DNA of 48,715 nucleotides, taken from positions 1-48,715 of the forward strand of contig CAJQLJ010000048.1 in assembly GCA_905479135.1 (NCBI GenBank), written 5' to 3'. Source of the stretch: an uncultured Campylobacterales bacterium (lineage in GTDB: Bacteria; Campylobacterota; Campylobacteria; Campylobacterales; Arcobacteraceae). Both the position numbers and the translations under genes were made by a program. Shown piece by piece: positions 39,193 to 40,544 of this stretch. The notes below the pieces were generated by a model. It was not told where the DNA came from and ran no database searches. It saw nothing but the letters and a program-made list of their open reading frames with translations. Positions within the stretch are counted from its first letter, which is position 1. Every line of letters starts with the position of its first letter.

Positions 39193-39639
39193 ATGATACT
39201 ATATATAGATGGAGATGCTTTCCCTAATTTATTGAAACCTATTGTTTTAAGAGCAATTGAAAGATTAGAACTTGAAACTATAGTTATTGCAAATAAAAAA
39301 ATAAATATAGGAAAATCAAAATATATTACCTATATAATTGTAGAAGCTGGTGCAGATGAGGCTGATAATAAAATAGTTGAACTTTTAAAAGAACAAGACT
39401 TGGTAATAACAGCAGACATTCCTCTAGCGGATAGGATAATAACAAAAAAAGCACATGCAATAGATCATAGAGGTGCTTTGTATACAGAAGATAATATAAA
39501 ACAATATCTTGCTTATAGAAATTTAATGCAAGAAATTAGAGATAGTGGAGAAATGACTAAAGGTCCAGCCGCATTTTCAGCTAAAGACTCACAACAATTT
39601 GCAAACTCTCTAAATAAATTTTTGCAGAATATAAAATAA
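39193..39639 (+). CDS. YaiI/YqxD (DUF188) family protein
   Basis: 148 residues. The family signature is visible: YIDGDAFPNLLKPIV (PIN-like Asp), AGADEADNKIVE, LVITADIPLADRIITKKAHAID and the closing MRDSGEMTKGP-like segment (here IRDSGEMTKGPAAFSAKD). The fold is PIN-like with conserved Asp residues, so a metal-dependent nuclease is plausible, but function is not established. It lies 15 bases after the EnvC-like gene on the same strand. Confidence 0.9.
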   Translation: MILYIDGDAFPNLLKPIVLRAIERLELETIVIANKKINIGKSKYITYIIVEAGADEADNKIVELLKEQDLVITADIPLADRIITKKAHAIDHRGALYTEDNIKQYLAYRNLMQEIRDSGEMTKGPAAFSAKDSQQFANSLNKFLQNIK

Positions 39640-39665
39640 CTTACAAATATAAAGGATTTACCATC

Positions 39666-40544
39666 ATTTTAATAGACCAATCAACAAAAAAACAATTTAA
39701 GTCATTTTGTAAAAAAAACAATCCAAAAGACTTAGAAACTGCAATTGAATATTTCACTGTATTTGGTGGACTAAACATCGATATTGATATAACAATTCCT
39801 TTAAAAGATTTAATACAAACAGAGATTTTAGATAAATATAGATATTTAAAAAATCAAATTAATGCAATAACAGGTGGTTATAGTGTAGACCAAGCAGTCT
39901 TAAGTGGTATTGCATTAGGAGATAGAAGAACAAACTCATCTTTCAAAAGAGCGTTTGTAAGCTTTGAAGAGGGAATGAAATGTGTTGAAGGTCTTGCTGA
40001 ACGAGGAATTATTGAGATGGAATCATCTCAACACTTCTTAGTTAATCAAAGAGGAGATAGTAAAATATCAAAAAAACTGCTATTTACTACTCCTTTTTTA
40101 AGATTTTGGTTTGCTTTTGTTTCACCTATTTATAAAGGTATTAAAGAAGGTAATTATAATGAATTTTATAAAAATTACGAAAATAAAAAAGCTGATTTTT
40201 CAGGTTTTGTATTTGAAGAGTTAGCAATGGAATTTTTAAGAGATCTATATGCCGATGATGAGATTAAAAATATTGGTAAATATTGGGATGATAAAAATAA
40301 TATTGATTTAATTGCAAAAACAAAATCTGGCAAAACAATAGCAGCATCATGTAAATATATTAATTCTAAGATCAAAAAAAGTGAATTAAACAACTTAAAA
40401 AGAACTTGTAAAGAAGTTGGATTTGAACCTGATATTTGTATATTATTTACAAAAAAAGGCTTTACAAATGAAATTAAAGCATTGAAAGATGAGACACTCA
40501 GGTTATATACTGCAAAAAGTTTTAAACTGTTACTTGACAAATAA
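39666..40544 (+). CDS. Stand-alone DUF234 protein with no canonical start codon
   Basis: An open frame of 292 residues from ATT 39666. AAGGA (39652-39656) lies 9 bases before ATT 39666 and 6 before an ATC at 39663; no ATG, GTG or TTG occurs in frame until ATG 39975, about 100 codons in. The first 100 residues are protein-like (FKSFCKKNNPKDLETAIEYF, VLSGIALGDRRTNSSFKRAF) and continue smoothly into the rest, so the gene truly starts near the ATT/ATC. The C-terminal half matches DUF234: RFWFAFVSPIYKGI and IGKYWDDKNNIDLIAKTKSG; the nuclease-like core keeps Lys (ASCKY) but lacks the Glu of ExK. There is no ATPase domain. The FkbM gene starts 3 bases after its stop. Confidence 0.75.
   Translation: MLIDQSTKKQFKSFCKKNNPKDLETAIEYFTVFGGLNIDIDITIPLKDLIQTEILDKYRYLKNQINAITGGYSVDQAVLSGIALGDRRTNSSFKRAFVSFEEGMKCVEGLAERGIIEMESSQHFLVNQRGDSKISKKLLFTTPFLRFWFAFVSPIYKGIKEGNYNEFYKNYENKKADFSGFVFEELAMEFLRDLYADDEIKNIGKYWDDKNNIDLIAKTKSGKTIAASCKYINSKIKKSELNNLKRTCKEVGFEPDICILFTKKGFTNEIKALKDETLRLYTAKSFKLLLDK

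Follow-up and report, generated by a model that had tools for sequence, protein, structure and literature searches.

Translation of a DUF234 gene in a draft Arcobacteraceae genome very probably starts at an AUC codon (position 39663), and comparative sequence analysis indicates that this start belongs to a small set of AUH initiation codons (AUU, AUC or AUA) found across the family. Bacterial AUH starts are considered rarities, with infC and pcnB as examples; our comparisons suggest that they constitute a stable feature of Arcobacteraceae, affecting at least five genes, including ftsK. The sequence comparisons set out below document where the start lies, that it is a non-AUG codon, that it is conserved and has counterparts in other genes, and that the initiator tRNA is standard. 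The explanation that best joins these data, to which we assign a probability of roughly 70%, combines the AUC 39663 start and the family-wide AUH set with weak initiation by fMet-tRNA and a low protein output.

The gene lies in a stretch of 48,715 nucleotides (hereafter, the window), contig 48 of a 1.5 Mb draft genome from the family Arcobacteraceae; among named organisms, Poseidonibacter species are closest to it. An initial annotation, made from the window alone, had described a coding frame of about 292 codons with an AAGGA site, followed by ATC 39663, ATT 39666 and no standard start for another 100 codons or so. Direct reading bore this out: the frame is open for 308 codons (39618-40544) and contains no ATG, GTG or TTG until ATG 39975, codon 105; 293 codons separate ATC 39663 from the TAA stop, and the site reads AAAGGA (Table 1).

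Table 1. Features of the DUF234 locus in the window, and reference loci of the other genes with AUH starts.
Feature	Position	Strand	Basis or homologues
yaiI/yqxD (DUF188), upstream gene with ATG start, used as control	39193..39639	+	Pfam DUF188, 1e-47; ends 23 nt before the ATC
Shine-Dalgarno sequence AAAGGA	39651..39656	+	Direct reading; GG core 7 nt ahead of the ATC
Start codon ATC (inferred)	39663..39665	+	AT+N at this alignment position in all 95 orthologues of the family; several have an in-frame stop shortly before it
CDS of DUF234-domain protein, 293 codons plus stop	39663..40544	+	Stop TAA 40542-40544
Second codon ATT	39666-39668	+	Direct reading
Winged-helix (wHTH)-like region, residues ~62-161	39846..40145	+	AlphaFold2 pLDDT 92; Foldseek and VIA-align matches
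ATG of codon 105, earliest canonical codon in the frame; encodes an internal Met of the winged-helix region	39975..39977	+	Not the start
Pfam DUF234 match, residues 149-236	40107..40370	+	PF03008, E=1.8e-15
PD-(D/E)XK nuclease-like fold, residues 180-293	40200..40541	+	VIA-align
ftsK	L225:12795-15002	+	L265-L294, L335-L364
Sensor histidine kinase	L299:4799-5944	+	L416-L445
AEC-type permease	L298:4024-4935	+	L365-L394
Small protein, ~106 aa	L398:1516-1833	+	L395-L410

DUF234 orthologues were present in 97 of the 104 Arcobacteraceae genomes, and 95 family orthologues were aligned for the start column. At the position of ATC 39663 this column holds ATT in 32 orthologues, ATC in 24, ATA in 17 and ATG in 22, i.e., 73 non-AUG codons. 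The Shine-Dalgarno (SD) sequence of the orthologues is typically AAAGGA or AAAGGC, and among the 47 non-AUG cases of the deduplicated set, 45 have its GG at a distance of 7 nt from the codon. An alignment locating the Met of the orthologues had been proposed as a check, and it placed the ATG of the ATG-bearing relatives exactly at the 39663 column, which is occupied by GTG or TTG in two further orthologues (L171, L172). Outside Arcobacteraceae, 16 more orthologues display ATH, and others ATG, GTG or TTG, often at the same place. The gene shows the sequence features of the non-AUG start class, namely a conserved protein start devoid of ATG, GTG and TTG, an AUH codon with an SD at working distance, and relatives that carry a canonical codon at the aligned position. 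The start column also settles the choice between AUU and AUC that the initial annotation had left: AUC 39663 stands, and AUU 39666 falls, as its column varies freely among relatives (TTA, TTT, AAA or GAT) and is therefore that of an ordinary second codon. The same non-ATG arrangement occurs in isolate genomes, e.g., those of Poseidonibacter ostreae and P. lekithochrous (L031, L034), and a sequencing or assembly error was discarded on these grounds. One record titled 'MAG: Helicobacter pylori PMSS1' (L045) bears an Arcobacteraceae-like gene, and its title is probably a mislabel.

Other genes of this kind were searched for by comparing Poseidonibacter genomes over two stretches of 400 kb, comprising 261 + 208 = 469 conserved ORFs, the criterion being coding sequence that precedes the earliest canonical start codon, with an overlap filter against antisense shadow ORFs. 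Four genes besides DUF234 were found to have an AUH start, coding for FtsK, a sensor histidine kinase, an AEC-type permease and a small HTH-like protein. AUH starts would thus amount to ~1% of conserved ORFs in this small sample of two syntenic regions of one genus, which represents a lower bound because genes in which a canonical codon follows shortly after the AUH would escape. The ftsK start is ATA, ATC or ATT, and never AUG, in 30/30 Arcobacteraceae genomes, and it is preceded by AAAGG(C/A) and six bases; AUU or AUC is also found in genomes of five further families of the order (f6, f9, f14, f17 and f19), and family f15 has TTG one codon later. The kinase, with a clear HATPase_c and a weak HisKA match in Pfam, likewise starts with AUH in 30/30 genomes (ATA 19, ATC 8, ATT 3), behind GAGGAG; its leader often reads GAGGAG-TAG-GTT-ATC, with an in-frame stop one codon before the start. 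The AEC-type permease (PF03547) has ATC or ATA in most genomes of the family, ATG in two and GTG in one, and the small protein (~106 aa, HTH-like C-terminus, without a Pfam match) has ATC, ATT or ATA in 11 genomes and GTG in 5. In-frame stops at most four codons upstream of the start were present in 5 orthologues of ftsK, 12 of the AEC permease, 11 of the kinase and 2 of the small gene. Genomes with ATG in DUF234 still carry ATA or ATC in ftsK, and the start is therefore chosen gene by gene. In the open-access papers searched, AUH starts were found described neither for Campylobacterota nor for ftsK.

The evolution of these codons was followed by parsimony on single-gene trees. For DUF234, at least 25 changes were counted at the third base of the start, 4 of them to G and 21 among non-AUG codons, and the first and second bases never change; the corresponding third-base changes were 4 in ftsK (none to G), 7 in the AEC permease (2 to G) and 9 in the kinase (none to G). 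Pooled, changes to G make up ~6 of 40-45, vs 11-16% at four-fold sites of DUF234, ftsK and the AEC permease, so that AUH starts drift to G at about the rate of neutral sites. Since AUG is not avoided among these changes, tolerance rather than selection is indicated for DUF234 and the AEC permease; a complete absence of AUG at the start is limited to ftsK and the kinase. As a separate observation on DUF234 and the AEC permease, C occupies the third position of the start codon far more often (25% in DUF234) than it does four-fold sites (~6%). In a survey of 36 genome triplets, one of 61,358 ancestral AUG starts had turned into AUU (PMC5622118), and the third-base drift of the AUH starts is unlike the behavior of ordinary starts in that survey.

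The sister genome G095 encodes a standard initiator tRNA, as judged from C1:A72 and from the three G-C pairs of its anticodon stem, and an altered initiator tRNA was consequently rejected as an explanation. IF3 was found in 61/61 genomes searched. Arg99 of IF3 is important for discrimination; in the family, an alignment inspected by eye indicates that Tyr75 and Arg131 of the E. coli protein are kept and Arg99 is replaced by Ser. With a standard initiator tRNA and IF3 both present, we infer normal fMet initiation with a mismatch at the third base. In this mechanism, the ordinary fMet-tRNA (CAU) would pair with the A and the U of the AUH codon, the third base being mismatched, and a good, precisely spaced SD would make up for the mismatch. 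In vitro, codon bases 1 and 2 must pair, and IF3 disfavours weak third-base pairs (PMC10158994); the invariance of A and T in the start column agrees with this pairing demand. A weak, IF3-sensitive initiation is a plausible working mode of AUH starts, which under IF3 discrimination would yield a low yet sufficient synthesis of a low-demand protein, and the lineage would keep a small set of genes in the AUH state (DUF234, ftsK, the sensor kinase, the AEC permease and the small HTH-like protein), the low output being either selected or tolerated. A more far-reaching proposal, which we regard as tentative and rather doubtful, is that Campylobacterales harbor an AUH gene class (~1% of genes or more), ftsK included, that acts as a long-lived translational regulon answering to IF3 or initiator-tRNA levels.

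The most serious competing explanation, although an unlikely one in our estimation, is a permissive machinery for which AUH is nearly as good as AUG, so that the third base would be unimportant in this lineage and regulation would not be involved. The neutral rate of change to G in DUF234 (4/25, with 16% in the control), the sharing of AUH starts by five unrelated genes, and the Ser in place of Arg99 in IF3 are all in line with it. However, conserved SD-backed starts comprise 213 ATG, 31 TTG and 11 GTG vs ~5 ATH, and the neighbouring control gene yaiI starts with ATG in 25/25 genomes that carry non-AUG DUF234 starts, from which it follows that AUG is clearly favoured in general; moreover, the replacement of Arg99 by Ser is shared with another IF3 of solved structure and is therefore not special to Arcobacteraceae.

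A start at ATG 39975, or an isoform produced from it, with the upstream conservation due to another cause, is very improbable, even though Met105 is nearly invariant and this ATG would be the choice of standard gene finders. The 104 codons ahead of it are conserved in their amino acids and include invariant residues in the orthologue alignment; between the genomes G093 and G095, substitutions before the first canonical start accumulate at third codon positions (22/9/49 at positions 1/2/3), and 34 of 60 changed codons are synonymous, as in coding sequence. Furthermore, residues 11-105 of the AlphaFold model have pLDDT >90. The suspicion that the first 100 residues are real protein was thereby confirmed, as was the prediction that a start at ATG 39975 would cost a domain: the winged-helix region would be cut in half and six predicted helices lost. 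The SD-like GAGG closest to ATG 39975 ends ~2 nt ahead of it, a spacing that is too small, and several relatives have an SD-spaced ATG at the 39663 column instead.

Equally improbable is a canonical start further upstream with the frame reached by frameshifting or stop read-through, an idea compatible with the short distance from yaiI and with a window frame open back to 39618, but opposed by in-frame stops, by the lack of canonical codons in any frame, by the proximity of promoters, and by an arrangement that is the same in orthologues with and without yaiI upstream. In the deduplicated set, 12 of 47 orthologues have an in-frame stop no more than four codons ahead of the ATH, some of them one codon away, and one or two such stops stand just ahead in close relatives, which places the start no further upstream. 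From -12 to +24, ATG, GTG and TTG are absent in all frames in 38/47 DUF234 and 30/30 ftsK genes, which disfavours frameshifting from a nearby start. Finally, an extended -10 element (TGnTATA[ACG]T) occurs upstream in 36 of 86 DUF234 orthologues vs 0.6 expected, and most -10 hexamers end 18-35 nt before the start codon; so close a promoter implies a short mRNA leader.

Read from AUC 39663, the product matches Pfam DUF234 (PF03008) with 57.6 bits, against a gathering cut-off of 22.5. Structural models predict that the N-terminal part is helical and contains a winged helix, resembling MarR-type and Rio2 wHTH domains in Foldseek and VIA-align comparisons, and that the C-terminus adopts a PD-(D/E)XK-like fold, which gave VIA-align Z scores of 10.4 to AF1548 and of 8-9 to AspBHI, MspJI and Can2/Card1; a PDB sequence search with the family profile gave no match. 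Inspection by eye revealed xCK, with a residue that is not acidic, where the PD-(D/E)XK-like site (window 40320-40370) would usually have E-x-K; this holds for all aligned relatives, and the predicted nuclease may therefore be inactive. Binding of nucleic acid is a probable, still putative, function. Longer DUF234 proteins carry an N-terminal archaeal-type ATPase domain; no Pfam match to such a domain was obtained over the 293 aa, and the protein studied here is a stand-alone short form. The purpose that had been suggested by analogy, i.e., IF3 autoregulation of the infC type, does not apply to this gene, because its product, a wHTH and PD-(D/E)XK-like protein matching DUF234, is not IF3 or any translation factor, the IF3 gene being elsewhere in the genome (G000:C27), and because the start codon of infC in Arcobacteraceae is TTG, preceded by an SD (L195-L224).

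If confirmed, these findings would mean that start-codon rules vary between bacterial lineages, and that gene finders probably shorten proteins with AUH starts; FtsK, when read from its first ATG, GTG or TTG, would lose its first transmembrane stretch. The genes would also provide natural replicates for studying how protein dose is set jointly by IF3, the SD and the start codon.

Among known systems, infC starts with AUU in E. coli and with ATC in Streptomyces, and is repressed by IF3 (PMC5472188); it resembles the DUF234 gene in having an AT-plus-mismatch start behind an SD, and differs in that it feeds back on IF3. The sigR gene of Streptomyces starts with GTC in 32 of 34 cases, is likewise repressed by IF3 and is misannotated in databases (PMC5472188). 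Its non-canonical start is kept genus-wide, as that of DUF234 is kept here; however, sigR involves GTC or GTT in one gene and was demonstrated by experiment, whereas the Arcobacteraceae case is known from sequence comparison. For other AUU starts, the protein is full-length only when AUU is taken as the start (PMC1780047); these are isolated cases without the family-wide conservation displayed in Arcobacteraceae. Lastly, pcnB of E. coli, as cited in that same work (PMC1780047), has an inefficient AUU start that limits its output, and thus offers a parallel of an AUH start in a gene other than that of IF3; pcnB is one gene in enterobacteria, whereas here five or more genes are concerned throughout a family, with AUU, AUC, AUA and AUG interchanging.
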